Counted from the stretch's first letter, positions 10,372-57,957 are shown. The stretch is 64,000 nucleotides of DNA from Thermodesulfobacteriales bacterium (GCA_026988575.1 JALSKZ010000018.1:1-64000); one strand, 5' to 3'. The notes: generated from the letters alone by a model not told the origin. Numbers and translations: made by a program.

Positions 10372-11129
10372 GGCTCCCTCCGTTTTTTATACACTACCTC
10401 TTTTAAAAAAAGACCTTGAGGTGGCGCTGGGGGTGGAGCCAAAGACCTGTCTTTGGCCGCCATAATCTCCCTCAATTCCTGAGGAGTTAATCGGTGAAGA
10501 CCCACTTCCACTATCGCCCCAACGATATTTCTTACCATATACCGTAAAAACCCCCGGGCCGAAATCTCAAAACGTAGCATATGGGCAGTGCCGGTGGCCC
10601 ATTTGAGTTTTGCCTGATAAACCGTACGTACGGTACTACGAATATCACTGCCCGTCTTTCGGAAACTGGCAAAATCTTTCTGGCCCAAAAAGATATCCAG
10701 ACAAGAACGCATCGCAGAAAGGTCAAGTTTCTGGGGTACCCACCAGGAATAAAGACGCCATATAGGATGGCGAATAGGATGGTTATAGATCTGATAAAAA
10801 TAGGTCTTGGAACAGGCGTCGTATTGGGCATTAAATTTAATAGGTACTTCCTCCACCTTTACAATGGCTATGTCTTTGGGGAGGAGGGCATTCAGGGCCC
10901 GTTGGAGATCAGCACGAGACATCTTATTGGTGGTGAGGAAATTGGCTACCTGCCCCAGGGCATGGACCCCCGCATCTGTGCGACCAGCCGCGCGAAGCTT
11001 CACCCGGTGGCCCAAAAGCCTCCCTAAGGTCTCTTCTAAGACCCCTTGAACAGTCGGTCCCGTCTTTTGCTTCTGCCACCCCAGATAATTTGTACCGTCA
11101 TAAGCAATGGTAAGCTTTATATTCCGCAT
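10368..11129 (-). CDS. truA: tRNA pseudouridine(38-40) synthase
   Basis: 253-residue TruA, which isomerises uridines 38-40 in the tRNA anticodon stem. The catalytic Asp52 lies in AAGRTDAGVHALGQ, and the N-terminal IAYDGTNYLGWQ and late FLRYMVRNIVGA blocks are canonical. It starts 3 bases after argC and overlaps the aminotransferase by 4 bases. Length is normal for the family. Confidence 0.96.
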   Translation of the reverse strand: MRNIKLTIAYDGTNYLGWQKQKTGPTVQGVLEETLGRLLGHRVKLRAAGRTDAGVHALGQVANFLTTNKMSRADLQRALNALLPKDIAIVKVEEVPIKFNAQYDACSKTYFYQIYNHPIRHPIWRLYSWWVPQKLDLSAMRSCLDIFLGQKDFASFRKTGSDIRSTVRTVYQAKLKWATGTAHMLRFEISARGFLRYMVRNIVGAIVEVGLHRLTPQELREIMAAKDRSLAPPPAPPQGLFLKEVVYKKRREP

Positions 11130-11132
11130 GCA

Positions 11133-12170
11133 TCAAGGGAAAAGAGATATTTGCCCAAGGCCCATATCCTCAGGAAAACCGTACATCAAATTAAGGTTTT
11201 GCACTGCCTGCCCACTGGCCCCTTTGACTAGGTTATCTATAGCCGAAATCAAAATTAACCGGCCTGTACGGACGTCTAAAGTAAAAGCAATGATACAATA
11301 ATTAGTCCCTTTTACGTGGGCTGTATTCGGATAAAGCCCTGCCGGACAGAGTCTCACAAAGCCTTTGCCCCTGTAAAAGCTCTCTAAGCCCTCCCGGATG
11401 TCTTGCTCCCTAATACCTTCTTTGGGCTGGGCATAAATAGTGGCCAATATCCCCCTGTTCATAGGGACAAGATGGGTAGTAAAGTTTACGCGAAGGGACA
11501 CCTTGGCCGCCCGAGAGAGCTCCTGTTCGATCTCTGGCGTATGGCGATGAGAGGCTACACTGTAAGCCCGAAACCCCTCGTTTACTTCGCAAAAAATAAG
11601 AGGCAGCTTTGCCCCCCGTCCGGCCCCAGAAACGCCACTTTTGGCGTCTATAATGATATTTTCGGGCTCGATAAGCCCTTGAGACAACAGAGGGATAAGG
11701 GGTAAAAGACTGGCTGTAGGGTAACACCCAGGATTAGCCACAAGGCGCGCCTTGCTTATGGCCTCCGCATAGATTTCTGGCAAACCATACACGGCCTCGG
11801 CCAGCAAATCGGGCACGGGATGTTCCTGATACCAAGCTTGATATTCAGCCGGGTCCTTTAAACGAAAATCAGCCGAAAGATCTATAACCTTAAGCCCCCG
11901 CTCCAAAAGCGCCTTGGCCATCAAAGCAGCGGCCCCGTGGGGTACACACAAAAAGGCCAGCTCTGCTTCTTGGGCTACCTCATCAGGATCGGGAGTAATA
12001 AAACGAAGAGCACCGTATTTATGCAGAAAGGGGAACAAATCTGTAAGCCGTTTCCCGGCTTCTTTCCGCGAGGTTATACAAGTAACTTTTACCTCCGGGT
12101 GGCCCGCCAACAGGCGCAGGAGCTCCACACCTGTATAACCCGTGGCCCCCACAATGGCCACCCTTACCAT
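11133..12170 (-). CDS. argC: N-acetyl-gamma-glutamyl-phosphate reductase
   Basis: 345-residue NADPH-dependent enzyme of arginine biosynthesis. The N-terminal Rossmann motif is VGATGYTGVELLRLL, and the catalytic Cys lies in VANPGCYPTA. The frame could open at a TTG five codons upstream. The ATG at 12170 is preferred because GGTGGGGGG sits just before it and MVRVAIVG is the usual N-terminus. It begins 15 bases after the rpsI stop codon. Confidence 0.96.
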   Translation of the reverse strand: MVRVAIVGATGYTGVELLRLLAGHPEVKVTCITSRKEAGKRLTDLFPFLHKYGALRFITPDPDEVAQEAELAFLCVPHGAAALMAKALLERGLKVIDLSADFRLKDPAEYQAWYQEHPVPDLLAEAVYGLPEIYAEAISKARLVANPGCYPTASLLPLIPLLSQGLIEPENIIIDAKSGVSGAGRGAKLPLIFCEVNEGFRAYSVASHRHTPEIEQELSRAAKVSLRVNFTTHLVPMNRGILATIYAQPKEGIREQDIREGLESFYRGKGFVRLCPAGLYPNTAHVKGTNYCIIAFTLDVRTGRLILISAIDNLVKGASGQAVQNLNLMYGFPEDMGLGQISLFP

Positions 12171-12185
12171 ATAGCCCCCCACCAA

Positions 12186-12587
12186 CTAACGTTTGGAGTA
12201 CTGTTGCCCTCTTCTTGCACCACGCAATCCATACTTTTTACGCTCTTTGACCCGGGCGTCTCGGGTAAGGAAGCCAGCCTTTTTCAACGAAGGACGCAAC
12301 TCTTCATTAAAAAGGACTAAGGCCTTGGAGATCCCGTGACGTATAGCCTCCGCCTGGGCGGATTTACCTCCGCCTTCCACCGTACAATAAATATCAAACT
12401 TACCCAAGGTGCCCGTTAAGTTAAACGGCATTTCAACTACGTGTCTAGCCACGATATTATCGCTAAAATACTCGTCAAAAGGCTTTTTATTAACTATAAA
12501 TTGCCCACTACCAGGCGTTATCCACACCCGGGCAATAGCCGTCTTTCTCTTTCCCGTCGCGTAAAAACGCTTTTTTGCCTCTGCCAT
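12186..12587 (-). CDS. rpsI: 30S ribosomal protein S9
   Basis: 133-residue small-subunit protein. The N-terminal YATGKRKTAIARVWI, the internal TVEGGGKSAQAEAIRHGI and the basic C-terminus GARRGQQYSKR, which reaches the P-site tRNA, are all canonical. It follows rplM by 17 bases, the conserved L13-S9 pair. Confidence 0.98.
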   Translation of the reverse strand: MAEAKKRFYATGKRKTAIARVWITPGSGQFIVNKKPFDEYFSDNIVARHVVEMPFNLTGTLGKFDIYCTVEGGGKSAQAEAIRHGISKALVLFNEELRPSLKKAGFLTRDARVKERKKYGLRGARRGQQYSKR

Positions 12588-12604
12588 AATTCACCCTCTC
12601 CTTA

Positions 12605-13048
12605 CTAAAATTCCAAAGTCTTTGGTCTTTGGGCCCCATGAGGATGTTGTGGCCCCCTGTATATCTTGAGTTTTTTGAGCATTTTACGCCCCAAACGATT
12701 TTTGGGTAGCATACGTTTCACCGCCAAGCGAAGGATTTCTTCTGGTTTGGAAGACAAGAGTTTTTGGGCTGGAGTCAGCTTAATGCCCCCCATATACCCC
12801 GAATGCCGCCAGTAAATCTTTTGTTCTAATTTCTTACCGGTAAGCTTTATTTGGTCGGCATTGATAACTACGATAAAATCTCCCCCGTCAACATGGGGCG
12901 TAAAATCCGCCCTGTGCTTACCCCTGAGTCTTTGCGCAATAAGACTGGCTAAACGGCCTAAAACCTTGCCCTTGGCGTCGATGACGTACCAATCCCGCTT
13001 AACCTCTTCCTTCTTCAACATTGGCGTCTGCGATGTAAAAATGGCCAT
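12605..13048 (-). CDS. rplM: 50S ribosomal protein L13
   Basis: 147-residue large-subunit protein, recognised by [18 protein letters not shown] and the GMLP-type block [18 protein letters not shown]. Start ATG 13048 follows AAGGAG. It is first gene of the rplM-rpsI-argC-truA-aminotransferase operon. A sigma-70-like promoter lies just upstream at 13082-13110. Confidence 0.98.
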
Positions 13049-37464: not shown

Positions 37465-38448
37465 ATGAAAAAGCTAAAAGAAATAAAAGACGCGGTGGCC
37501 CTTTTTCGTAATGAAGAAGCAGTATATTTAAACCCGGTTTTCAGACGCCTTTTCCAATTAGAAGACCAATATCCTCGACTAAGGGATATTTTTGCGCCCC
37601 CACCGCCAGGCTATGGGCTTTACGAGACCAGGGCCCAACGCCCTAATGGATCCCAGTTTGATGCCGAAGTAATCGTACTGCCTTACCAAGAGGATCTATC
37701 ACAGGTGCTAGTCCGCGACATAACCAGCCGTCAAGCCGTAGAAAAATTGTGGATTCAGTCAGAGAGATTGGCTGCCATGGGAAAGCTAGCCGGCGAGATT
37801 GCTCACGAAATTAATAACCCCTTGGGGGGGATCCTCCTCTACGCTAATCTACTCAAAGAAGATCTCCCTTCCGAAAGCCCCCATCTGGACCTGGTAGAAA
37901 AGATAATAAAGCTTGCCACCCGCTGTCGTATCATCGCCAAGGCCCTTTTAAATTTTGGGCGTCCGGAAGAAAGCCTTGAAGAGTGGCTGGACCTAAACCA
38001 AATCTTAACCGACATGTTTTCGCTCATCGAAGACCATCGCCTATTTCGCCGCCAAGAGATAATCTGGGAATTAAGCCCGGAATTACCGCTCATTCAAGGT
38101 AACAGGAATCAGATGGAACAGTTAGTCTTAAACTTGATTATAAATGCCGGAGAAGCCCTGAACAACAGACCGGGCAAGATCTATCTACGCACCTTTTACG
38201 ACGAAATAGACGGCATGGTAGTCTTAGAGGTAGAAGATACCGGCGAGGGAATTTCGCCAGAGATATTACCCCGCATTTTTGAACCGTTTTTTACCACCAA
38301 GACCGGGGGAAAAGGTACGGGGTTGGGACTTTCCATTTGTCACGGTATAGTTAAGAGGCATCGTGGACAGATAGAAGTAGAAAGCACGCTGAAAGAAGGG
38401 ACTATATTTCGTATAAAACTGCCGCGCGCGCCTTATAGCCATGAATAA
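37465..38448 (+). CDS. Soluble PAS sensor histidine kinase
   Basis: 327 residues with no TM or signal peptide. A PAS-like domain (about 8-90) feeds HisKA with His114 (EIAHEINNPLGGILLY) and a complete HATPase (NLIINAGEAL, DTGEGI, TGLGLSI). This is the NtrB-type layout, so the signal is cytoplasmic. It overlaps the sigma-54 response regulator gene by 8 bases. No ribosome binding site is visible before the ATG. Confidence 0.92.
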   Translation: MKKLKEIKDAVALFRNEEAVYLNPVFRRLFQLEDQYPRLRDIFAPPPPGYGLYETRAQRPNGSQFDAEVIVLPYQEDLSQVLVRDITSRQAVEKLWIQSERLAAMGKLAGEIAHEINNPLGGILLYANLLKEDLPSESPHLDLVEKIIKLATRCRIIAKALLNFGRPEESLEEWLDLNQILTDMFSLIEDHRLFRRQEIIWELSPELPLIQGNRNQMEQLVLNLIINAGEALNNRPGKIYLRTFYDEIDGMVVLEVEDTGEGISPEILPRIFEPFFTTKTGGKGTGLGLSICHGIVKRHRGQIEVESTLKEGTIFRIKLPRAPYSHE

Positions 38449-46382: not shown

Positions 46383-47333
46383 TTAGGCAGTAACCAAGGC
46401 CAAGGTAAAGCTTTCGGCCTTGTGCAACACTTTATTGGAAACACTACCCATAATGAGCTCTTTGATCCCGGAAAGACCCCGACGCCCCATGATCACTACA
46501 TCGATATTCTCCTCTTGGGCCATGGAGACTATTTCGTTTGCCGGCCGACCAATACGCCATTCCTCTTGGATCAAACTCTCTGAAACCCCAAAAGAAACGG
46601 CCTTTTCCTTAAACTGTTTAAGCAAGTTTTTGGCCTCTTCTATCCTTTCCAGCAGGTGATCAGACTCATAGGCTACGTCAATAACCAAAAGGAGCTTGAG
46701 GCTTTTTACCTTTTCTTTAAAGGCCAAGAGCAATCCACAGGCCTCGCGCAGGGCCGCTACCGAACAAGCAGAACCATCAATAGGCACTAACAGACGCTCT
46801 ACAGGACACGTGCCGTTTACTTTTTGGCCTACCACATAGGTAGTATGGGCCCCTGGTCTATGACAAACAGCCAGGCTACAGCTGCCCACGAAGCGTTCCT
46901 TGAGACAAGAAAAACCACGCCGGCCCATGATCACCGTATGAAGGCCCTTTTTTTGGGAAAAATCAACGATCTCTTTGGGGGGGTCTCCCTCCAAGACTAT
47001 TTTCTTAATAGGAACCGTTATACCCCGCTTTTTGAGCTCTTGTTCAGCCCAATCTAATAAGGGTTGGGCTTTACTCTGAATATACTCCTCACGCAGCCTT
47101 TTGAAAAAGGAACTCTCTTTGATAAACTCCACGCGGAAGTCTATCTTCGGGGCGGTAGTTTCTAAAAAACCCGCGGAAATTACGTGCAAGAGATCTATTT
47201 CTTCTAAGACTTCTTTGTCAAGGGGGGCTAATAAATAGCCCGCAAAGAATATGGCCTTTTTAGAACATTCGCTACCTTCTACCGGGATCAATACTTTGTC
47301 CATCTTGGGCAATAGTGTCTTTAAGTTGCTCAT
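46383..47333 (-). CDS. Tandem universal stress protein (two USP domains)
   Basis: 316 residues made of two USP repeats. The first starts KVLIPVEGSECSKKAI and has IMGRRGFSCLKERFVGS; the second starts RLLVPIDGSACSVAAL and ends VVIMGRRGLSGIKELIMGS. Both keep the G-x2-G-x9-G-[ST] type ATP-binding loop in recognisable form. ATG 47333 with GGAGG six bases away is preferred over the ATG two codons earlier. It follows the anion permease by 18 bases in one operon. Confidence 0.9.
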   Translation of the reverse strand: MSNLKTLLPKMDKVLIPVEGSECSKKAIFFAGYLLAPLDKEVLEEIDLLHVISAGFLETTAPKIDFRVEFIKESSFFKRLREEYIQSKAQPLLDWAEQELKKRGITVPIKKIVLEGDPPKEIVDFSQKKGLHTVIMGRRGFSCLKERFVGSCSLAVCHRPGAHTTYVVGQKVNGTCPVERLLVPIDGSACSVAALREACGLLLAFKEKVKSLKLLLVIDVAYESDHLLERIEEAKNLLKQFKEKAVSFGVSESLIQEEWRIGRPANEIVSMAQEENIDVVIMGRRGLSGIKELIMGSVSNKVLHKAESFTLALVTA

Positions 47334-47351
47334 GATCATCCTCCATGGAGT

Positions 47352-49124
47352 CTAATAAAAGATCAGGAGCCATATATTGGCTATGGCCACACTCAACACC
47401 ATGTATACAAAACCTACTTTCATATATTCGAAAAATTTGGTCCTGTGTCCCGCGGCCTCCGCAATACCTAAGGTAACCACATTGGCACTGGCCCCAATCA
47501 TTGTACCGTTCCCTCCAAAACAGGCTCCCAAAGCCAAGGCCCACCACAGGACGTCACTTTCGGCTCCAGGGATAACACGAGTCAAATAGGCGGTTATAGG
47601 GAGCATGGTCGCTGTAAAGGGGATATTATCGACAAAAGCACTCATTATTGCCGAGACCCAAAGGATAAGACAGATGGCCTTGGGCAAAGAACCATGAGAG
47701 AGATGCAGGACCCAGTCGGCAATGATATCAAGGAGACCGGTTTCTTCAACTGCCCCTACTAAAATAAAAAGAAACATAAAAAACAAAAGTGTTGTCCATT
47801 CTATTTCTTTTTCTACTAACTCTAAAAGATTAACTCTTTTGGTAACAATACCGTAAGTCATTAATACAGCAGCACCGAAAAGAGCAGCAACAGAAACTTC
47901 CATATGCCATATACCGTGGGTTACGAAGAAAAAGATAACAATAGACATTATAATAAGGCCTACTGCAAGAAGGGTACTATCCGTAATTTTATATTCTTCT
48001 CTAAGTTTGGCAATAAAAGAATCTACATCTTCTACCTTAGCACGTTTAAAATCTTTTCCATAAACGAATTTAGAAAACACAAACAGCAACAACATACTAA
48101 GAGCTACAACAGGACCCAAATTTTCAACAAACTGAAGAAAAGTAAGACCTGTATAAGAACCTATCATTATGTTAGGTGGATCTCCTATCAAGGTTGCGGT
48201 ACCACCTATGTTAGAGGCCAAAATTTCAGGGATAAGCAAATCAAGAGGAGAAAGACCAAGAGAAAGGGCTATTTCTATAGTAACTGGCGTCAGTAATAAC
48301 ATTGTAGTGACATTGTCCAGAAAAGCAGAAGTTACTGCGGTAAAGGTGGTCAATATTATACACAATAAATATACATTCCCGCGCGCTAGTTGATAGCTTT
48401 TATAGGCACACCACTGAAATACTCCTGTATTTTTTAATATACCAACTATTATCATCATGCCCATCAAAAGGAAAATGACGTTCATATCAATAGCCTGAAT
48501 AGCTGTTTCGTAAGAAATGATATGATATTCTGGATTTAAGATACCAATGGTATAAGAAATTACTAACATGATAGCAGCACCTAACAAGGCAGCCACTGTT
48601 CGGTGGAGCAGTTCGAAGCTAATCAGGATATAAGCCAAGACAAAAATGACGGTGGAAATCCAAAAGGCCGGTCCTAAATGACGTTTCAAAATAAGATCTT
48701 TGACGGCAAAATAATGGTTTCCTTTTACTGCCAATTCTTCAGCAGGTATAGTAATGGTGACAGGCTTAAAAGAGGCCTTAAATAGCTTTAGAGTGATAGG
48801 TGAAGGAAGCATATCCCTGGGCAAAGGGGCTACAATTTGGAAAGAGCCATCTTTTTGGGTATAAAAGACATCCACTAGGGTATGCCCGTGTTCCCCCATA
48901 CGTACAAAAACGGGTTTACCATGAATCAGGACCCGAATCTCCACGTCGTCCACAGGCTCTTTATGGGTATCCAAAATGCGGCCGGAGAGATGTAAAAAGA
49001 CCTCGGCCTTAATATCTTCGGGATTGGTAGTCTTTACCGCATGATGTCCCCCCCAGACTTTGGTCCCTACCCCCAAGGCCACAAAAAATAAAAAAAAGAT
49101 TACCGGACCCAGGAACCTTCTCAT
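47352..49124 (-). CDS. ArsB/NhaD-superfamily permease with periplasmic N-terminal domain
   Basis: 590 residues. A signal-like TM is followed by a ~130-residue extracytoplasmic beta domain resembling carboxypeptidase-regulatory repeats (VFLHLSGRILDTHKEPVDDV, cited in part). About eleven TM segments of the ion-transporter superfamily follow, with AFLDNVTTMLLLTPVTIEIA, ASNIGGTATLIGDPPNIMIG and AFVDNIPFTATMLP. The substrate may be sodium, an inorganic anion or an oxyanion; sequence cannot decide. ATG 49124 with GGAGG upstream is chosen over a longer frame. A USP gene is co-transcribed. Confidence 0.88.
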   Translation of the reverse strand: MRRFLGPVIFFLFFVALGVGTKVWGGHHAVKTTNPEDIKAEVFLHLSGRILDTHKEPVDDVEIRVLIHGKPVFVRMGEHGHTLVDVFYTQKDGSFQIVAPLPRDMLPSPITLKLFKASFKPVTITIPAEELAVKGNHYFAVKDLILKRHLGPAFWISTVIFVLAYILISFELLHRTVAALLGAAIMLVISYTIGILNPEYHIISYETAIQAIDMNVIFLLMGMMIIVGILKNTGVFQWCAYKSYQLARGNVYLLCIILTTFTAVTSAFLDNVTTMLLLTPVTIEIALSLGLSPLDLLIPEILASNIGGTATLIGDPPNIMIGSYTGLTFLQFVENLGPVVALSMLLLFVFSKFVYGKDFKRAKVEDVDSFIAKLREEYKITDSTLLAVGLIIMSIVIFFFVTHGIWHMEVSVAALFGAAVLMTYGIVTKRVNLLELVEKEIEWTTLLFFMFLFILVGAVEETGLLDIIADWVLHLSHGSLPKAICLILWVSAIMSAFVDNIPFTATMLPITAYLTRVIPGAESDVLWWALALGACFGGNGTMIGASANVVTLGIAEAAGHRTKFFEYMKVGFVYMVLSVAIANIWLLIFY

Positions 49125-49254
49125 GACGGCCTCCATTACGGCATTTTGTAGATTCTCTATCGGCAAAAGGAAAAAATTATTAAGTTAACGAAAAGTTTTT
49201 ATAATACGATTGGTTCTGAATTGCGAGAGAACATTTAATTTTGAAAAGAAAAGA

Positions 49255-49317: not shown

Positions 49318-49749
49318 CTAATGTCCGGCGTGGAGAAAACCAGAAGCCGCCAGAAGTAATATGAGAACTTCAAAAATGGCTATGATCCCCACCGCACGTG
49401 CTCCAGAACTAAACAAAAAGGGGATAATGGCCAAGTAACCGATTATCGTCAGGCCGGCCAAGAAGATTATGCCCACGTAATTAAGCATGTCCCCATAACC
49501 CAAAAAATGTACCCAATCCCACCCGCTCTTGAGGTGGATATGGTGCAAAAAGTCATAGGCCGTAAGATGCCATAGTTGAGGAATTTGGGCTGGAGGGACA
49601 TAAGCCGGCAGTACTCCCAAAATATAAATCAAAAAAGTAACCAACATGGTCCCTATACCTATCAAAGAACCATATTTAAGTATCTTGGCATATATGATAG
49701 CCTCAGGTGGTACCTCTATTTGTGTGTTAGGATCTAGTCTTTGGGCCAT
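49318..49749 (-). CDS. DUF1634-like small membrane protein
   Basis: 143 residues with four hydrophobic segments. It starts with a short polar N-terminus before an AKILKYGSLIGIGTM helix, and its layout fits DUF1634 proteins, which are usually encoded directly after TauE/SafE permeases in archaea and thermophiles. It is 29 bases downstream of the TauE gene at 49779 and probably an accessory subunit. ATG follows GGGGAGGTG. Confidence 0.7.
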   Translation of the reverse strand: MAQRLDPNTQIEVPPEAIIYAKILKYGSLIGIGTMLVTFLIYILGVLPAYVPPAQIPQLWHLTAYDFLHHIHLKSGWDWVHFLGYGDMLNYVGIIFLAGLTIIGYLAIIPFLFSSGARAVGIIAIFEVLILLLAASGFLHAGH

Positions 49750-49778: not shown

Positions 49779-50771
49779 TTATATTCCTAAGCCTTTTAAT
49801 ATCGCCCTTACCCCGGCAAAAAGGAGCATTACGATAACGATCCATCGCACTATAGCGGGTCTGGCTACGGCAAGAAGCTGGACCCCTATAAAAGAACCCA
49901 GCATAATACCTACTAGGGAGGGGATGACTATTAAAGGAATAATGCCTCCACTATTTATATAAATCCAAGCCGCGGAAGTATCGGTAATAGAAAGCAGAAA
50001 CTTACTGGTAGCTACGGCTATTTTTATAGGAGCACCCATTAGTAGATTAAGTACCGGGATATTGGCCCAGCCAGCCCCTAAGCCAAACATACCGGCCATG
50101 ACGCCTATTATAACGAATAGAGCCAATCCCAAAGGGGTTCGGTGCACATACCATTTGTAAACTTCACCAGTGGATTCTTCTCGATATATCCCGTAAATAC
50201 CCAGCGCCTGCCCCAAAGCATCGGGTTTTTTAACCTTGGGAAACTCACTTTTTTTAGAAAAAAACATCAGGGCCACGATAAAAAGGATGGTCGCCCCCAA
50301 AAGGATTTGTACAATATTGCGGGGCAGGGTTAACCCGATCATCGCCCCCACAATAGCGGCTGTAGAAGCAATGAGGGCCACAGGTATGGCCAAGCGCAAG
50401 GAGGCTAAGTTACGCATGAGTAGACCAGGACCAGCAGCAAGGGCCCCAGAAAGGGCCACTAACAAACCGGCCGCACGGACAAAATCTAGATTAAAAGGAT
50501 AAAAACCACTTACAATAGGGACGAATAAGACCCCTCCCCCCACTCCCCCTAATACCGCTACAATGCCTATTAAAAAAGTAGTAATGAAAAGGGCTATAGG
50601 CCAAAACCACCAAGGCTTAGAAGTAGCAGCCGCCGCATTATCCATTACGGAAGCCACGGCTTCCTTAGCCTCTTGAGGGGAGGCCTGCCCCCACGAATAA
50701 TATAAGCCGGCTACAACCAAGAACAAAAATATCCCCACCGCCCATTTAAATTTGCGGCTCCTTATACCCAT
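49779..50771 (-). CDS. TauE/SafE-family permease (first copy)
   Basis: 330 residues. One N-terminal TM precedes two repeat halves of the family (VLGGVGGGVLFVPIVSGFYP and MFGLGAGWANIPVLNLLMG are the paired signatures). Members export sulfite, sulfoacetate or other organosulfur anions. A loop of about 30 residues with charged and aromatic residues interrupts the middle. It is co-transcribed with the DUF1634-like gene. An inverted repeat related to the regulator sites near 53.7 and 56.6 kb lies about 140 bases upstream. Confidence 0.9.
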   Translation of the reverse strand: MGIRSRKFKWAVGIFLFLVVAGLYYSWGQASPQEAKEAVASVMDNAAAATSKPWWFWPIALFITTFLIGIVAVLGGVGGGVLFVPIVSGFYPFNLDFVRAAGLLVALSGALAAGPGLLMRNLASLRLAIPVALIASTAAIVGAMIGLTLPRNIVQILLGATILFIVALMFFSKKSEFPKVKKPDALGQALGIYGIYREESTGEVYKWYVHRTPLGLALFVIIGVMAGMFGLGAGWANIPVLNLLMGAPIKIAVATSKFLLSITDTSAAWIYINSGGIIPLIVIPSLVGIMLGSFIGVQLLAVARPAIVRWIVIVMLLFAGVRAILKGLGI

Positions 50772-50907: not shown

Positions 50908-50924
50908 TGTTTCGTTTCGCAACA
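50908..50924 (-). promoter_or_regulatory. Candidate enhancer site TGTTTC-N5-GCAACA
   Basis: Half-sites TGTTTC (50908-50913) and GCAACA (50919-50924) differ by one base from the repeats at 56623-56660. It lies upstream of the first TauE gene. A -24/-12 promoter downstream is only imperfect: TTGGG and GCT are spaced one base too far. Confidence 0.45.
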
Positions 50925-50971
50925 CCTATGTCTAGTTATGTAACATATTTAAGATATATTGTTTTATAAAG

Positions 50972-51009
50972 AAAAAGGCAGGTCTGCGGGAAGGCAGACC
51001 TGCCTTTTT
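50972..51009. terminator. Strong bidirectional-looking terminator
   Basis: Perfect 16-base arms (50972-50987 and 50994-51009) with a six-base loop and A/T runs on both sides. It ends the USP/TauE operon arriving from the right and separates it from the first TauE gene. Confidence 0.85.
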
Positions 51010-51035
51010 AGAAAGCAACAAAATAAAGACTTGGT

Positions 51036-51461
51036 TCAGTCTTTTATCACCAATACAGGACAAGGGGCTTCGGCAAGCACGCGTTCGGTACAACTCCCCA
51101 AAAAGAACTTCCCTAGGCTCCCGTGTCCGTGACTACCCATAACGATAAGATCACAACCCAGGACCTTAGCTGCCTCTACAATCTTTTCGTGTGGTTTCCC
51201 CTCGGCCATACGCAGGGCCAAGGGAAAATCTTTTTTCTGGGCAATTTCTCTGGCTTTGGCCAGTACTTTTTCGCCCTCTTCCTTAAAGGCCTCGCGCACG
51301 GACTTGAGGTCAAATAGATCGATAAATTCTCCCCCTTTGGGTATTACAAAAAGCGCCGTGGCCTTAGCCCCATATTTTTTGGCTAACTCCAACCCCTCTT
51401 CTAAGGCCTTGTAACTCGGCTCTGAACCATCTACTGGTATCAGAATATGTGTATAAGACAT
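51036..51461 (-). CDS. Universal stress protein
   Basis: 141 residues, one USP domain. HILIPVDGSEPSYKAL opens the fold, and the ATP-binding loop MGSHGHGSLGKFFLGS is intact, so it belongs to the nucleotide-binding class. It is the last gene of the sigma-54-type operon that begins at 53517, 14 bases after the second TauE gene. Confidence 0.94.
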   Translation of the reverse strand: MSYTHILIPVDGSEPSYKALEEGLELAKKYGAKATALFVIPKGGEFIDLFDLKSVREAFKEEGEKVLAKAREIAQKKDFPLALRMAEGKPHEKIVEAAKVLGCDLIVMGSHGHGSLGKFFLGSCTERVLAEAPCPVLVIKD

Positions 51462-51475
51462 ATAATAGCCTCCTT

Positions 51476-52597
51476 TTAGGCTCCACTGGGTACCTTTATA
51501 GACTCAACCAAACCATATTTTTTGACCAAACGCTGTTTTTCAAAGTGGCCTTTAAAAGTCCAGTAGATAATAAGGAAGGTAGCCACACCACCACTGGCAA
51601 AGAGAGATATCTTACTGGCCATCTCAAACCAAGCAGCCGCCTTATCCGAAAGTTGAATGAGGTGAAGCTTGTGCAAGTAATCGGGCACCGCAAAGGCCCT
51701 GGATAGGCAGCAGAGCAAGATCAGGATAGAAGTAACCATGCGGATATAGAGTTCTTTAACCAAGCTGGTACCAATGGCACCGATATATATACCCACGAGA
51801 GATCCAGCGTAAAGCAAGAAGGTGAGCCGGAGATCTACAAACCCTGCTAGGGCATAATTAAACGCCCCCCAGGCCCCCATAAACATGGCCAGGAAGAGCT
51901 CTGTACCAGCAGCTACCACCGTGGGGACTCCAAACACATAGATCATAGCAGGCACCCCTATAAAACCGCCTACTCCAATAGTGCCTGCCATGTAACCCAC
52001 GGCCGTACCTACAATTAAAATAGTCCAAAGAGAAATCTTCACCCCAGCCACGGGGAAATTGATCATTGGGGGGATACGCAACTTACTGGATAATTTCAAT
52101 AAAGCCTTAGAAGGCCCTACATCCCCACCCCGCGCGGTGCGTAAGGCATCTTTCAACATAGAACCACCAATCAACGAAAGCGTAATTATAAAGAATAAAC
52201 TCACATAAAGACTGGAACCTGCCTTACCAAGGTGGTGGAAAAAGTATCCGTTAACCCACACCGCCAGTTTTATGCCTAATAGAGCGGTAGTAAGCACGAA
52301 TACGGCTAATTTTTTGTCTACATGGCCCAACTCGCCGTGTTTTTTGGAGCCCATCATGGCCTTTCCAAATTTATGGGTAATATTGGCCCCTACGGCCATG
52401 ACCCCAGGGACTCCAAGATTCATCATACCAGGGGTCATCAAAAAGGCACCCCCTGAACCAATAAATCCTGAAAGGGTCCCCCCCATAAAACCAAGTAAGA
52501 CTACCCATAAATAATTCCACGGACTAGAAGAAAGTACTTGTGTTACAATTTGCAACTGTTCTGGGGACACATGTCCGGTTACTGGTCCGGCAGCCAT
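51476..52597 (-). CDS. TauE/SafE-family permease (second copy)
   Basis: 373 residues. The two family halves are GFMGGTLSGFIGSGGAFLMTP and AGTIGVGGFIGVPAMIYVFG (in parts). About nine to ten TM segments, and a C-terminal TM close to the end. It differs from the first copy in N-terminus and loops. The neighbouring USP genes on both sides suggest stress-linked anion export. ATG follows AAGGAGG. Confidence 0.92.
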   Translation of the reverse strand: MAAGPVTGHVSPEQLQIVTQVLSSSPWNYLWVVLLGFMGGTLSGFIGSGGAFLMTPGMMNLGVPGVMAVGANITHKFGKAMMGSKKHGELGHVDKKLAVFVLTTALLGIKLAVWVNGYFFHHLGKAGSSLYVSLFFIITLSLIGGSMLKDALRTARGGDVGPSKALLKLSSKLRIPPMINFPVAGVKISLWTILIVGTAVGYMAGTIGVGGFIGVPAMIYVFGVPTVVAAGTELFLAMFMGAWGAFNYALAGFVDLRLTFLLYAGSLVGIYIGAIGTSLVKELYIRMVTSILILLCCLSRAFAVPDYLHKLHLIQLSDKAAAWFEMASKISLFASGGVATFLIIYWTFKGHFEKQRLVKKYGLVESIKVPSGA

Positions 52598-52626
52598 ATC
52601 TAACCTCCTTATAAAAGTTTTTTCTT

Positions 52627-53298
52627 CTAATGGTCACTACCTGCAGACTTTTCCAGGCCTATCAATTTAGGGATACACTCGGTGAAACTACCGTATATGT
52701 ATGCGTGAATAGGCACGGTAAAAAGCACCGCTAGGGCCCCCCAAAGGGTCCCGGTCATATAAATCTTGTAATTTAGTTCCTCAATGTGCGGGAAAAAGAC
52801 AAAGTAGCTTAAGGCAGAAAGGGCCCCAAAAACCCCCATACGAACCCAGACTTTGGCCTTGGATTTCTTTTCTGGAGGCATCAAGGTCTTTATGGAAAGG
52901 ACCGGGCAATTCATACGTAAACTTATGTCTTCTAGGTGTTTTATGTCTTCTTCGGCCAGGGGTTTGAGATCTACGTCACCCACAATAATAAGCTCAGCAG
53001 GAGAAAACTCTTTCATGGCTTGCATAAAGGCCCGCGGACGATACTGAATTATCTTCCACTCCAGCTCTACCCCCTCTTTTCGACAGCGCTCCTCAAGGGC
53101 CTGGGCAAAAGAGGCAATTTTCTCTTCTTTTTCGCGTATCTGTTTTTCTTGAGTCTCGATCCAGTCCACTGTTTCTACGACCACAGGAATCAAAAAGAGG
53201 GCCGAAAGATGCGCTCCTTTCTTTTTAGCTATCTCCAAGGCATAAGAGATGTTTTTTGGTTCTCGATCGACTTGTTCTACAAATACTATTTTTTCCAT
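52627..53298 (-). CDS. USP-domain protein with two C-terminal TM segments
   Basis: 223 residues. The N-terminal ~150 are USP-like (IVFVEQVDREPKNISYALEIA, later LIIVGDVDLKPL and CPVLSI) but lack the G-x2-G-x9-GS ATP loop. The last 60 residues carry two membrane spans (VFGALSALSYFVFF and MTGTLWGALAVLFTVPIHAY). A membrane-tethered USP next to a TauE permease may act on it directly; that is inference. ATG follows GAGGAGG. Confidence 0.85.
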   Translation of the reverse strand: MEKIVFVEQVDREPKNISYALEIAKKKGAHLSALFLIPVVVETVDWIETQEKQIREKEEKIASFAQALEERCRKEGVELEWKIIQYRPRAFMQAMKEFSPAELIIVGDVDLKPLAEEDIKHLEDISLRMNCPVLSIKTLMPPEKKSKAKVWVRMGVFGALSALSYFVFFPHIEELNYKIYMTGTLWGALAVLFTVPIHAYIYGSFTECIPKLIGLEKSAGSDH

Positions 53299-53325
53299 AC
53301 AAACCTCCTCTCCTGTTTTTGTTGC

Positions 53326-53517
53326 CTAAGGCGTGACTAATAAGGGCCAAAACATGACCGGAGGCATGGGCGGACGAGGCCCCTTACCCGCCAAACCACG
53401 CCTATGGCCTATAAATCTTCGAGCCATTTCTGGCTCACCCTCTTCAGCCAAGGCCGCAGCCGCCATATATGTGCCAAAGAGATCCAAAAGCCCTTTTTGC
53501 CTCTTCTGGTGGATCAT
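53326..53517 (-). CDS. Small motif protein (AALAEEGE type)
   Basis: 63 residues from ATG 53517, with GGAGGTG seven bases before. I do not recognise a family. Residues around YMAAAALAEEGEPEMARRF are a variant of the AFAEAGEFDTA motif found in the two proteins at 56.7-58 kb. A Gly/Arg/Pro-rich tail follows. It is the first gene after a near-perfect sigma-54 promoter and precedes the USP-TM, TauE and USP genes. Confidence 0.75.
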   Translation of the reverse strand: MIHQKRQKGLLDLFGTYMAAAALAEEGEPEMARRFIGHRRGLAGKGPRPPMPPVMFWPLLVTP

Positions 53518-53554
53518 GTCTCTCACCTCCAAAATCGTTTTAATTTATTTATTA

Positions 53555-53571
53555 AGCAAACACAGTGCCAA
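53555..53571 (-). promoter_or_regulatory. Sigma-54 (-24/-12) promoter of the small protein-USP-TauE-USP operon
   Basis: Minus-strand TTGGCACTGTGTTTGCT matches the consensus TGGCACG-N4-TTGCW, with GG (53569-53568) and GC (53557-53556) exactly 10 bases apart. The predicted transcript starts about 28 bases before the ATG at 53517 and includes its ribosome binding site. Confidence 0.85.
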
Positions 53572-53634
53572 TCCTGGATCTCCACCGGGCAACCTATTAG
53601 CTTGTAACTATTTGCACATAAACCTCCCTTGGGC

Positions 53635-53651
53635 CGTTGAGAAACGAAACA
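53635..53651 (-). promoter_or_regulatory. Degenerate enhancer site with a GAAACA half-site
   Basis: GAAACA at 53646-53651 is one perfect half-site; the other half (CGTTGA) matches only 3 of 6. The minus strand reads GTGTTTCGTTTCTCAAC, close to the 50908 site GTGTTTCGTTTCGCAAC. It is about 100 bases upstream of the predicted start. Confidence 0.4.
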
Positions 53652-53704
53652 CTCCCTGCGAATGATCTTTTAATTGTTAAAAAAATTACAAAATTCCTTA
53701 TCGA

Positions 53705-53721
53705 TGTTTAAATTTGAAACA
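53705..53721. promoter_or_regulatory. Enhancer-like inverted repeat TGTTTA-N5-GAAACA
   Basis: TGTTTA (53705-53710) and GAAACA (53716-53721), one mismatch from the perfect repeat at 56644-56660. It lies between the divergent sigma-54 operon and the kinase gene and could serve both. Confidence 0.5.
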
Positions 53722-53726
53722 CTATG

Positions 53727-53755
53727 TTGCAATTATCTGCAATAAGATGTATCTA
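53727..53755 (+). promoter_or_regulatory. Sigma-70-type promoter of the kinase/regulator pair at 53781
   Basis: TTGCAA (53727-53732), 17-base spacer, TATCTA (53750-53755), about 25 bases before the kinase ATG. An enhancer-like repeat ends 5 bases upstream. Confidence 0.5.
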
Positions 53756-53780
53756 ATTAAAAAAGGGGAATGAGGGTGGC

Positions 53781-55193
53781 ATGCATAGTCTCCGCTTAAA
53801 GATCCAGATCGGCTATTTTATCCTTCTTATCCCTTTACTGATATCTCTTTTGTTGTCTTACTTGAGCCTTAATTCTATTTGGAAGCGCATCAAAATCCTC
53901 GAAATAATGGATTCCTTTACGGAAAACATCCTTGAAGCCCGGCGTTACGAAAAAAATTTTTTGCTTTACCACCACCAAGAAGACATCCAAAAGGCTAGAG
54001 ATTTTGCCTTTCGGGCCGAAGACCTTCTCCTAGATTTTGAAGGAACCTTTTTAAAGATCTCTCACCCAGATTTGGTCTACCAGCTAAAGAACGAGCTTGA
54101 GTCTTACGTGACCAGACTGCAGGAACTCTCCCTAAAGACCCCGTCTAAGGAAGAACTAACCGAGGAGAAAAAATTACGTCTTGCTGGTCGCGAGGTCGTA
54201 AATATCAGCAAGATGATCCGCGAAAGAGAAATAAATCGCATACATTATACCTTCCAAAGGATCGTTTACTACCTCGTAATCCTTGCTTTAAGCTCTATAG
54301 CCGTTATTAGTGGGGTGGGCTATCTCATGTCGCGGGCAGTGGTACGCCCCCTGGAACAGCTAGAAGTATGCATGCGAAACTTCGCCCTGGGCAAAGAGAC
54401 ACGTCCGCGGTGTCCCGAAACCAGAGACAAAGAAATAGCCTCCGTAATCAGGACCCTTTATTTAATGCTAAACGAATTAGAAGCCCGCAAAGAGCAGCTA
54501 GTCCAATCTAAGAAACTAGCAGCCTTAGGTACGCTCCTTTCGGGTGTGGCCCACGAGCTCAACAACCCTTTGGCCAACGCCTCTTCTACTTGCCAGATCG
54601 TATTAGAAGACCTGGAAACCTTAGATAAAGACCTTTTGCGTAATATGATAAGTCAAATAGACTCGGAAATATGGCGCGCACGAGACATAGTGCGCACCCT
54701 TCTAGAGTTTTCGCGCCACAGACATTATGAACCCCAAATTTATCCCCTGCTTCAATTAGTAGAAGAAGTCATAATTATGGCTCGAGGGAAATTGTCGCCT
54801 AAAATTCAATTGGAGGTAGATATCCCTGAAGGACTGAAGATTTACGTAGACCGCCAACGCTTTCAACAGGCCCTTTTAAATCTGGTTTCTAACGCCATTG
54901 ACGCCGTAGGAGAGGAGGGACGTATTATCATAAGTGCCCGTGAGGATCCAGACCGCTACGGTGTGTTATTGATAGTGCGTGATAATGGTTGTGGTATACC
55001 TAAAGAGCTGCAAGAAAAGATCTTTGACCCCTTCTTCAGTACCAAGGGCACCAAGGGATCAGGGCTGGGCCTGTATTTGGTAAACGAAATAGTAACCAGA
55101 CATGGAGGCTCTATTGCTTTGAAGAGCGAACCCGGAAAAGGGACTACCTTTTATTTGTTTTTTCCGTACGAAAGACCACCCAAAAACGAATAA
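53781..55193 (+). CDS. Membrane sensor histidine kinase
   Basis: 470 residues. TM1 about 10-30 and TM2 about 162-184 enclose a ~130-residue all-helical periplasmic domain starting EARRYEKNFLLYHH, the style of four-helix-bundle sensors. A HAMP domain (185-235), HisKA with His258 (GVAHELNNPLANAS) and a complete HATPase (NLVSNAIDAV, DNGCGIP, GSGLGLY) follow. It pairs with the sigma-54 regulator 24 bases downstream. The operon structure on both sides points to control of the permease and motif-protein genes. ATG follows GAGGG. Confidence 0.94.
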   Translation: MHSLRLKIQIGYFILLIPLLISLLLSYLSLNSIWKRIKILEIMDSFTENILEARRYEKNFLLYHHQEDIQKARDFAFRAEDLLLDFEGTFLKISHPDLVYQLKNELESYVTRLQELSLKTPSKEELTEEKKLRLAGREVVNISKMIREREINRIHYTFQRIVYYLVILALSSIAVISGVGYLMSRAVVRPLEQLEVCMRNFALGKETRPRCPETRDKEIASVIRTLYLMLNELEARKEQLVQSKKLAALGTLLSGVAHELNNPLANASSTCQIVLEDLETLDKDLLRNMISQIDSEIWRARDIVRTLLEFSRHRHYEPQIYPLLQLVEEVIIMARGKLSPKIQLEVDIPEGLKIYVDRQRFQQALLNLVSNAIDAVGEEGRIIISAREDPDRYGVLLIVRDNGCGIPKELQEKIFDPFFSTKGTKGSGLGLYLVNEIVTRHGGSIALKSEPGKGTTFYLFFPYERPPKNE

Positions 55194-55217
55194 AGGATTT
55201 AACAACGGGAAGATAAA

Positions 55218-56615
55218 ATGGTGGCAAACAAAGAAAACGAAAACCAAGGTGAAAATATTACGGGACGCATTTTGATAGTGGATGACGAAGAAATTGCCCT
55301 TCGCAACCTGGAATACATCTTAAAAAAGGCCGGCCATAAAGTCATCGGTACCACTAAGAGCATACAAGCCCTAGAATGGATCAAAAGTGAAGATTTTGAC
55401 GTATTACTCACCGACTTGCGTATGGAAAAGATCGACGGGCTAGAGCTATTACGGGCCATGCGTAGGTACCAGCCAGAGTCTGAAGTAATCATTATAACGG
55501 CTTACGCCACGGTAGATTCGGCCATAGAGGCCCTTAAGTCTGGGGCCTTCCATTACATAGCCAAACCCTTCAAGATCGAAGAAGTACGCAAAATAGTGGC
55601 CGAGGCCGTAGAAAAAACCAGACTTAAGAAGGAAAACTTGGCTCTGAAGCAAGAGCTCGAAAGCCTAAAGGGACGTGTCAAAATCATCACCCAGAATCCC
55701 CAAATGCGGGAAATCCTAAAGACGGCCTCCCAAATAGCCAACACCGATTGCACCGTGCTTATAACCGGCGAATCAGGCACAGGTAAAGAACTGCTGGCCC
55801 GTTTCATCCACGAAGCAAGTCATCGACGAGACAAACCCTTTATTGCTATAAACTGTGGGGTGTTTTCGGAAGAACTATTGGCCAGCGAATTATTTGGTCA
55901 CGAAAAAGGGGCCTATACCGGCGCCATCCAAACCAAAAAAGGCCTGGTGGAACAGGCCCATGGCGGCACCTTGTTTTTTGACGAAATCGCCGAAATGTCT
56001 TTACCAATGCAGGTCAAACTCCTGCGCCTCCTGCAAGAACAAGAATTTTATCGCGTAGGCGGGACACACCCTATAAAGGTAAACGTACGGTTTATCGCGG
56101 CTACTAACCGGGACCTCAAAAAACTTATGGAAATGGGTACCTTCCGACAAGACCTTTATTACCGACTAAATGTTGTCCATCTACACATTCCCCCTTTAGC
56201 CCAACGAAAAGAAGACATTCCGGCCCTGGCCTATTATTTTTTGCACCGTCACGCCGCCCAGATGAAAAAACCCGTAAAGGAAATAAGCCCGGAAGTCATC
56301 CGTACTTTGCAACACTACGATTTCCCCGGCAATGTAAGAGAGTTAGAGAATATCATTGAACGCGGAGTGGCCTTGGCTCAAGGTGAAATCCTAGACATAA
56401 ATTGCATCCCCGAAGAGCTCAAAAACCTAAAGATACACACCTTTCGTCGCGAAGACGGCCATTATCCCACCCTTGAAGAGCAGGAAATTGCCTATATAAA
56501 ATGGATCCTTAAAGAGACCAAAGGCAACAAGACCCAAGCCGCTAAAATTCTCGGCATAGACCGCGTTTCCCTCTGGCGTAAACTAAAGAAATACGGGCTA
56601 GAGGGCGAAGATTAA
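55218..56615 (+). CDS. Sigma-54-dependent response regulator (NtrC family)
   Basis: 465 residues: receiver with Asp66 (LLTDLRMEK), AAA+ with GESGTGKE, GAYTGA in place of the usual GAFTGA (a known active variant), FFDEI Walker B, and a Fis-type helix-turn-helix (NKTQAAKILGIDRVSLWRKL). The DNA sites TGTTTC-N5/6-GAAACA directly downstream and the -24/-12 promoters beside them make it the likely activator of the adjacent genes. Confidence 0.95.
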   Translation: MVANKENENQGENITGRILIVDDEEIALRNLEYILKKAGHKVIGTTKSIQALEWIKSEDFDVLLTDLRMEKIDGLELLRAMRRYQPESEVIIITAYATVDSAIEALKSGAFHYIAKPFKIEEVRKIVAEAVEKTRLKKENLALKQELESLKGRVKIITQNPQMREILKTASQIANTDCTVLITGESGTGKELLARFIHEASHRRDKPFIAINCGVFSEELLASELFGHEKGAYTGAIQTKKGLVEQAHGGTLFFDEIAEMSLPMQVKLLRLLQEQEFYRVGGTHPIKVNVRFIAATNRDLKKLMEMGTFRQDLYYRLNVVHLHIPPLAQRKEDIPALAYYFLHRHAAQMKKPVKEISPEVIRTLQHYDFPGNVRELENIIERGVALAQGEILDINCIPEELKNLKIHTFRREDGHYPTLEEQEIAYIKWILKETKGNKTQAAKILGIDRVSLWRKLKKYGLEGED

Positions 56616-56622
56616 CGCCCCT

Positions 56623-56640
56623 TGTTTCTTAAATGAAACA
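56623..56640. promoter_or_regulatory. Enhancer site 1, TGTTTC-N6-GAAACA
   Basis: Perfect inverted half-sites TGTTTC (56623-56628) and GAAACA (56635-56640). Its centre is about 20 bases, or two helical turns, from site 2, so two regulator dimers could bind one face of DNA. Confidence 0.7.
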
Positions 56641-56643
56641 GCT

Positions 56644-56660
56644 TGTTTCTTTTTGAAACA
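56644..56660. promoter_or_regulatory. Enhancer site 2, TGTTTC-N5-GAAACA
   Basis: Perfect half-sites TGTTTC (56644-56649) and GAAACA (56655-56660). It lies about 75 bases upstream of the predicted sigma-54 transcription start near 56728. Confidence 0.7.
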
Positions 56661-56700
56661 TTACCTGTTTATCTCCTCCCCCTATTTGCCATTTCTTTAT

Positions 56701-56717
56701 TTGGCATACATTTTGTA
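56701..56717 (+). promoter_or_regulatory. Sigma-54 promoter of the motif-protein pair
   Basis: TTGGCATACATTTTGTA keeps GG (56703-56704) and, 10 bases on, GT in place of GC; the -24 half is strong and the -12 half slightly weak. The transcript would start about 20 bases before ATG 56748. Confidence 0.65.
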
Positions 56718-56747
56718 TATAGTTACCAACGGGAGGTTAAAGAGAAG

Positions 56748-57212
56748 ATGAAAAAGAGATGGCAGCGCTTTACCAAAAATATCGAAGACTCTTTTGCTGC
56801 TACGGCTTTTGCCGAGGCTGGAGAATTTGACACGGCCAGAGGGCTTACTTCGGCACCAAAGGGGTGGATAGTCCTTGCCGGTCAGGGCGCCAAGTTATCT
56901 CAGCAGATATGTACTTATGTAAAAGAGCTCTGCAAGAGTACAAGCAGCGCCTTACAGATTATCTGGCGTGGGAACCTGAGTGCGGAAGAACTTTCGGAAG
57001 TGGACAAAGTACTCAAGGACCTCCCTGTAGAAGTAAATGTGGTCGCCGAAGACCTAGAAAAAGAGCTTCCCCGACAGCTACGTCAATTAAGGCGTATCGT
57101 AATGGTTGTCCTTACCGGTGAGAAGAGTCGTTTTCGGTCTTTTTTTAGCAAAGTTAGCTCTGAATTTGCTTGTCCCTTGGTAATAATTTCCGAAAAAGAT
57201 CTAAAGGGGTGA
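56748..57212 (+). CDS. Motif protein A (AFAEAGEFDTA, USP-like C-terminus)
   Basis: 154 residues from ATG 56748; a longer frame from TTG 56643 would run through the promoter and enhancer sites and is rejected. Residues 16-30 are SFAATAFAEAGEFDTAR. The rest is an alpha/beta domain ending FACPLVIISEKDL, reminiscent of the last strand of USP domains. I do not recognise a named family. It is followed by a second motif protein 4 bases on, both probably under sigma-54 control. Confidence 0.8.
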   Translation: MKKRWQRFTKNIEDSFAATAFAEAGEFDTARGLTSAPKGWIVLAGQGAKLSQQICTYVKELCKSTSSALQIIWRGNLSAEELSEVDKVLKDLPVEVNVVAEDLEKELPRQLRQLRRIVMVVLTGEKSRFRSFFSKVSSEFACPLVIISEKDLKG

Positions 57213-57216
57213 TATC

Positions 57217-57957
57217 ATGAGTATGTATGGTAAAAAGAGTTTATGGCATCGCATGTTGGAGGGTTTTACCGCTACAGCCTTTGCTGAAGCAGGAGAGTTT
57301 GACACTGCCCAAAAAATCGCCCGTGAAGCCGGCCTCCGGCCTTCTCTGGAGCTGTCCTGGTGGGAAAAGGCCATGGCCGCCATAGCCTTTGCCGAGGCAG
57401 GTGAGTTTGACACCGCCCAAAAATTTAGCCAGAAGGATTTGGTCTCTGAAATAGAGGTCAAATCGCGCCATTTGGATAATCTATTGGAAACATCCCTAGA
57501 GAGTGCGGCCGCAGCGGCCTTTGCCGAGGCTGGAGACCGCTATCAGGCCATCAAAATTATTGCCCGGCTACGGGGCAAAAAGGTCTTGATCGTCTGTGAA
57601 GGGGCCCACATACCCGAAAGGTTGATGCAACAGGGGATAGAATTGGCCGAAAAAATGGGGCTAGAATTAGTGGTCTTAAATATCTTCACCCATACCATGA
57701 CTGCTACGGCCTCTAAAGAGCGTGAAAAATGGCGTGCCCAACTGAAAAAACAGGCCGCCAAATCTTTGACCCCTTGGCGGAAAAAATATCCTAAACTACG
57801 CTTTCAGCACCAAGTAGGTTTTGGTCTACCGGGAGAGGTCATTAAACAAATATTGCCCCAGATAAAGGGGGTTCGTTACATATTGAGCCTAAAAGAAATT
57901 CATTTAGAAGAAAGTATTGCCTTAGAGTCCCAAATGGTCCATTCGTGGCGTCATTAA
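57217..57957 (+). CDS. Motif protein B (three AFAEAGE repeats plus USP domain)
   Basis: 246 residues. Three motif copies lie at about 18-31 (TATAFAEAGEFDTAQ), 54-68 (AAIAFAEAGEFDTAQ) and 97-111 (AAAAFAEAGDRYQAI). The spacing fits short TPR-like helical hairpins. From residue 121 a USP-type domain follows (KKVLIVCEGAHIPERL, then IELAEKMGLELVVLNIF). The ATP-binding loop is not evident. ATG follows GGGGTGAT. The gene is convergent with lpxB (9 bases apart). Confidence 0.85.
   Translation: MSMYGKKSLWHRMLEGFTATAFAEAGEFDTAQKIAREAGLRPSLELSWWEKAMAAIAFAEAGEFDTAQKFSQKDLVSEIEVKSRHLDNLLETSLESAAAAAFAEAGDRYQAIKIIARLRGKKVLIVCEGAHIPERLMQQGIELAEKMGLELVVLNIFTHTMTATASKEREKWRAQLKKQAAKSLTPWRKKYPKLRFQHQVGFGLPGEVIKQILPQIKGVRYILSLKEIHLEESIALESQMVHSWRH

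Follow-up and report, generated by a model that had tools for sequence, protein, structure and literature searches.

A histidine kinase/NtrC-type regulator pair and the genes on either side of it very probably form a phosphorylation-switched, locally acting two-component sigma-54 stress regulon, as far as can be judged from sequence. The window, that is, the whole stretch of 64,000 nucleotides that was analysed, lies on contig C18 of a 2,014,789-base, 88-contig genome from a heat-loving relative of sulfate-reducing bacteria. A local sigma-54 regulon joining this pair to hairpin-motif proteins, universal stress proteins (USPs) and TauE permeases had been proposed in the original prediction, and the proposal held: the operators are non-random, and both partners and promoters are conserved. 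Locus anatomy, operator specificity and enhancer position, promoter conservation, co-occurrence and the regulator clade were computed; the features are listed in Table 1.

The gene calls for the pair were as predicted (53781-56615). In the kinase, two predicted transmembrane (TM) segments (residues 10-28 and 161-179) flank a periplasmic region that carries a conserved ILExRRYEKNFLLY signature. The regulator matched PF00072, PF00158 and PF02954, all above cut-off, and its GAFTGA-type loop reads GAYTGA, which makes it NtrC-type. The sigma-54 gene, rpoN, is encoded elsewhere in the same genome. The conserved block reaches left to 46383. For TauE2, a sequence search for relatives with a solved structure found none. 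A second NtrC-type regulator of 453 aa was noticed in the window, at 38441; it fell outside the regulator clade of the module, on a long branch.

Table 1. Features of the candidate regulon (positions counted from the first letter of the window).
Feature	Position	Strand	Remarks
Tandem universal stress protein	46383..47339	-	Leftmost gene of conserved block
CitMHS/ArsB-type permease	47352..49166	-	After TauE1 and companion also in L018, L020
TauE1 companion, 143 aa, three TM	49318..49749	-	Conserved beside TauE1
TauE1, TauE/SafE permease	49779..50771	-	PF01925 117.7 bits (cut-off 32.6)
Candidate operator TGTTTCGTTTCGCAACA	50908..50924		Upstream of TauE1 operon; third matrix match
Universal stress protein	51036..51461	-	Left operon
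TauE2, TauE/SafE (TSUP) permease	51476..52597	-	PF01925 109.3 bits (cut-off 32.6)
Divergent USP domain with C-terminal membrane-like tail	52627..53298	-	Pfam Usp below cut-off
63-aa protein, one degenerate hairpin (ALAEEGEPEMA)	53326..53517	-	Left operon gene 1
-24/-12 (sigma-54) promoter TGGCACTGTGTTTGCT for leftward operon	53555..53570	-	Best in window; conserved
Candidate degenerate operator TGTTTCGTTTCTCAACG (minus strand)	53635..53651		81 bp upstream of left -24; fifth matrix match
Candidate operator TGTTTAAATTTGAAACA	53705..53721		151 bp upstream of left -24; second matrix match
Histidine kinase	53781..55193	+	Weak HAMP, HisKA, HATPase_c
NtrC-type response regulator	55218..56615	+	Receiver, AAA+ with GAYTGA, Fis-type HTH (NKTQAAKILGIDRVSLWRKLKKY)
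Candidate operator TGTTTC-N6-GAAACA	56623..56640		79 bp upstream of right -24; exact
Candidate operator TGTTTC-N5-GAAACA	56644..56660		58 bp upstream of right -24; exact, top matrix match
-24/-12-like promoter TGGCATACATTTTGTA for rightward operon	56702..56717	+	Weak alone; conserved L018-L021
Hairpin-motif protein M2, one hairpin then alpha/beta domain	56748..57212	+	Right operon; low-confidence model
Hairpin-motif protein M3, USP fold after three predicted helical hairpins	57217..57957	+	Right operon; predicted model

Two near-consensus promoters had been predicted, and the left one stood out by its score. The site TGGCACTGTGTTTGCT was the top -24/-12 site of the window (17.4, where shuffled windows are expected to hold 0.3 sites scoring at least 16) and fitted the GG-N10-GC sigma-54 pattern perfectly. 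The right site, TGGCATACATTTTGTA, came second in the window with 13.0, a level at which 2.55 sites are expected per shuffle; its score was thus rejected as stand-alone evidence, since chance yields about as many sites. It reads GT at -12 but is conserved: at the corresponding position, L018, L019, L020 and L021 showed TGGCAT sites resembling it, whose -12 elements were TTG[TA]A-like, and we accepted the right promoter because of this conserved position, despite the weak score. Most relatives also keep the left promoter, ahead of their first hairpin gene. A lack of conserved sigma-54 promoters in relatives, which would have spoken against the regulon, was therefore not seen.

The predicted inverted repeats were all recovered, with exact copies at 56623 (N6) and 56644 (N5) and copies one mismatch away from TGTTTC/GAAACA at 53705 and 50908; the box at 53635-53651 is additional to these four. 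Throughout the 2.01-Mb genome, TGTTTC-N4..7-GAAACA had no occurrences besides 56623 and 56644, and relaxing it to TGTTKC-N4..6-GMAACA added the site at 50908 and no other; this is not the random genome-wide recurrence that would have undermined the prediction. A weight matrix, the check originally suggested, was built from 64 sites of other genomes with the window left out of training. It ranked 56644 (22.4), 53705 (22.1) and 50908 (21.0) top in the window, followed by 52541 and 53635; the first four exceeded the shuffle maximum of 16.3, and 53635, with 13.3, was below that maximum and above every fifth-ranked shuffle score. The fourth match, an operator-like TGTTACAATTTGCAACT at 52541-52557, lies inside the start of the TauE2 coding sequence and may be due to chance. 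Distances of the training sites to -24/-12 peaked near 80, 93 and 180 bp; these sites had been preselected at 40-270 bp, and only clustering inside that range is informative. In nine module-bearing relatives, 9 of the 33 exact genome matches fell in the module, with ~0.025 expected on the assumption of 1.5 kb of target. Half-sites in relatives varied as TGTT[GT][AC], and an exact operator search of the module in G005 gave no match; family f3 has TGTTGA/TCAACA instead.

Synteny of the module was seen in three genomes from the same family (L018-L020) and extended to L021, from a different family within the order. Family f3 (L022-L025, L027 and L199) had the module in a simpler arrangement, and it was also present in L026, from a further family of the phylum. 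A TauE2 scan of named genomes gave 80 loci, in 22 of which a -24/-12 site was preceded by an operator at a distance of 20-260 bp, as compared with 1.3 such pairs per 80 shuffled loci. A cluster of hairpin genes, RRxEK kinase, regulator, USP-tail protein and TauE2 was found in Desulfobacteraceae (L030, L032), in Desulfobacterales (L040) and in metagenome-assembled genomes labelled Nitrospirota or Deferribacteres (L033-L035). A hairpin profile matched 30 of the 247 phylum genomes; it includes window sequences, so that its window matches are circular. All 20 hairpin neighbourhoods examined contained kinase or regulator homologues and 9 of them the TauE1-companion pair, the hairpin often lying within receiver-like ORFs. 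The co-occurrence that the original prediction asked for was thus seen, as kinase/regulator, hairpin proteins, USPs and TauE recurred across family, order, phylum and Nitrospirota.

Three proteins had been said to share the motif AFAEAGEFDTA. We found it in exact form in two, once in M2 and twice in M3, the latter having a further, degenerate third copy; the 63-aa protein has the degenerate form only. In the predicted M3 model (pLDDT 68), helical hairpins at residues 9-37, 42-71 and 74-118 precede a USP-like fold, the first half being of low confidence. The best solved match of this C-terminal fold was UspA 3s3t (E 2.4e-4 for the pLDDT 68 model), which likens M3 to the USP family, but against PF00582 it scored 19.1 bits, below the cut-off of 24. 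For M2, the model was of low confidence and the fold search gave nothing specific (no match reached E <=0.001); we only infer that M2 belongs with the USPs. The M3 model makes the motif a TPR-like helical hairpin, in which the turn resembles that of TPR hairpins. The term describes its shape and not family membership, the motif scoring 14.9 bits (E=0.041) against TPR_4, below the cut-off of 27. No Pfam or NCBIfam model recognised the hairpin/USP combination above its cut-off, and a literature text search for the string AFAEAGE found no occurrence among the papers listed. The idea of an undescribed repeat-motif family thus stands as regards profiles, but its members are mostly attached to USP-like domains rather than free-standing, and elsewhere the hairpins are also attached to receiver domains. 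In L186, L187, L190, L191 and L193-L197, the hairpin lies in small receiver-like ORFs beside the TauE1-companion pair, kinase and receivers. The M3 orthologue of L006 (G005:C71:18224-18937) is interrupted by one TAA. It seems unlikely, though worth stating, that the AFAEAGEFDTA hairpin is a dedicated, previously undescribed docking module linking USP-like domains, CheY-like receivers and TauE-type permeases in one anion-stress assembly conserved in Thermodesulfobacteriota and Nitrospirota.

Alternatively, some unlinked regulator other than this one, such as a repressor, might bind the palindromes, with the kinase/regulator pair controlling something else. Indeed, the TauE1 palindrome of L018 and L021 coincides with a sigma-70-like -10 element or closely follows it, as a repressor site might. 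However, across genomes the palindromes are found repeatedly next to regulators of this clade, they lie 80-180 bp upstream of sigma-54 promoters, that is, in enhancer position, and regulators with closely similar recognition helices accompany the same box. We hold an unlinked regulator to be very improbable, and the regulator of the module would itself bind these palindromes. How far its reach extends is less clear-cut for the TauE-DUF1634 operon, which had been predicted as a possible member. An operator is indeed present upstream of TauE1 in the window, L018 and L020, and with one mismatch in L021, close to what by eye is a sigma-70-like TTGAC-N17-TA element. A search upstream of TauE1 for -24/-12 gave no recognisable sigma-54 promoter, and a Pfam search of 49318-49749 at E 0.1 returned 0 families, which gives the DUF1634 label no support. 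The missing -24/-12 site would suit TauE1, its companion and CitMHS being independent neighbours outside the regulon. So would the variable operator position (upstream in some relatives, overlapping the likely start in others) and the strong terminator-like stem at 49278-49255 (minus) that sets the CitMHS gene apart from the TauE1 companion. Against such independence stand the operator shared by the four genomes and the association of TauE1 and its companion with hairpin proteins in 9 of the 20 sampled loci. Independence is conceivable, but we lean away from it; TauE1, too, is probably adjusted by this regulator, acting through a single operator at a promoter of sigma-70 type, and the effect could be of either sign.

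As an unprecedented system, the module did not stand up, since the published Desulfovibrio vulgaris DVU3303-3305/DVU3302-3298 system has the same logic. There, DVU3305 binds upstream of DVU3302-3298, which encode UspA-type and membrane proteins and whose levels go up at high pH, upon heat shock and in stationary phase (PMC3333781). The system is listed under sigma-54 control (PMC4641369), and its authors described regulator and binding site as conserved in other genera (PMC3333781, PMC4641369, PMC10102598). Under chlorate, DVU3303-3305 are detrimental, while their target DVU3299, which is putatively an anion transporter, is required (PMC10102598). Our comparison used the published descriptions and the proxy loci L147-L150. 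Each system has a kinase, an NtrC-type regulator and, under sigma-54, a target operon whose genes encode UspA-type proteins and membrane proteins or anion transporters.

One could then argue that the module is simply an orthologue of the DVU3303-3305 three-component system, with nothing new. The regulator tree gives weight to this: the window regulator fell, together with receiver-Lon-associated regulators, in a 45-row clade (support 97/99); of the 25 rows that came from receiver-Lon loci, 24 are in this clade. A 13-row subclade had support 100/100. Receiver-Lon proteins (PF00072 plus Lon_C) were found in 48 of the 395 phylum genomes. Most of 20 receiver-Lon loci hold the same kinase and regulator together with a TauE2 or ArsB-like permease, several have a small hairpin gene, and some have two boxes at ~92 and ~182 bp. 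The operon logic is the same, and in L148 even the gene order is the published one, hairpin/USP and TauE2 genes standing opposite those for receiver-Lon, kinase and regulator. Yet the window genome has three Lon-like ORFs, all without a receiver and none in the fused form, and among the sample matches listed no receiver-Lon came from genomes of the same order. The window also adds the hairpin-USP (M2/M3) operon and the TauE1 unit. A plain orthologue thus appears less convincing, if still a serious contender. By analogy, we would call the module a receiver-Lon-less variant of the DVU3303-3305 system and not a member, because receiver-Lon is absent from the window genome and from the sampled genomes of the order. 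In L026 (G045, 10732-12751), a receiver-Lon gene beside the module is apparently split into two overlapping frames. In a sister regulator clade with ...PRTTLWRKMK-type helices (L045, L056, L058, L060, L077, L102 and others), boxes resembling TGTTTC-N5-GAAACA precede sigma-54-like sites in the vicinity of TauE2-type genes, and no hairpin genes were found at these loci.

Other published systems were more distant. The DVU0110/DVUA0057 regulon shares two-component sigma-54 control of a TSUP permease (DVU0132-0133; PMC4641369), but its targets are exopolysaccharide and biofilm, and hairpin or USP genes are not reported. The Desulfovibrio nitrate cluster DVU0251-0245/Dde_0597-0605 also has a TauE-type permease, for which the authors suggested a leaky thiosulfate transporter, beside kinase and signalling genes (PMC4001038). 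It differs by a PAS kinase and a PtxB-like protein, and sigma-54/GAAACA control is not shown there; since gene content differs, this link was not adopted. USPs GF1_10730 and GF1_10800 and regulator GF1_10760 were detected by proteomics only in thiosulfate disproportionation (PMC9751629), a lead that could not be tied to the module.

In the regulon that we favour, the membrane kinase would sense an envelope or periplasmic signal via its conserved RRYEKNFLLY region and then phosphorylate the NtrC-type regulator. The latter would bind paired 17-bp palindromes, TGTT[GT]C-N5-G[AC]AACA, and activate sigma-54 polymerase at the two divergent promoters. The left operon would supply the small hairpin protein, a membrane-linked USP, the putative anion permease TauE2 and a USP, and the right operon two hairpin proteins with USP-like domains; TauE1 would probably be adjusted as proposed above. 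The products may transport a sulfur oxyanion or a comparable anion and dampen stress, with hairpins perhaps serving as docking modules. In this scheme we infer which protein binds the operator, what signal and ion are involved, which way transport runs and what the hairpins do. The export function of the original prediction remains an assumption, because TSUP substrates are not known. Against the scheme count the weak right promoter with its GT at -12, the inexact operators of G005 and family f3, and the variable position of the TauE1 operator.

Set beside the D. vulgaris stress system, whose logic was known, what appears to be new is the receiver-Lon-less form, the hairpin-USP operon and the hairpin family, the latter invisible to present annotation for want of a profile above cut-off. 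In D. vulgaris, TSUP or PSE transporters without known substrates are encoded in nine sigma-54 operons (PMC4641369). An operator that is almost confined to the locus, is shared between phyla and goes with a single regulator clade offers a direct handle on permeases, stress proteins and hairpin proteins acting together, and this tie between operator and regulator makes the signal testable.
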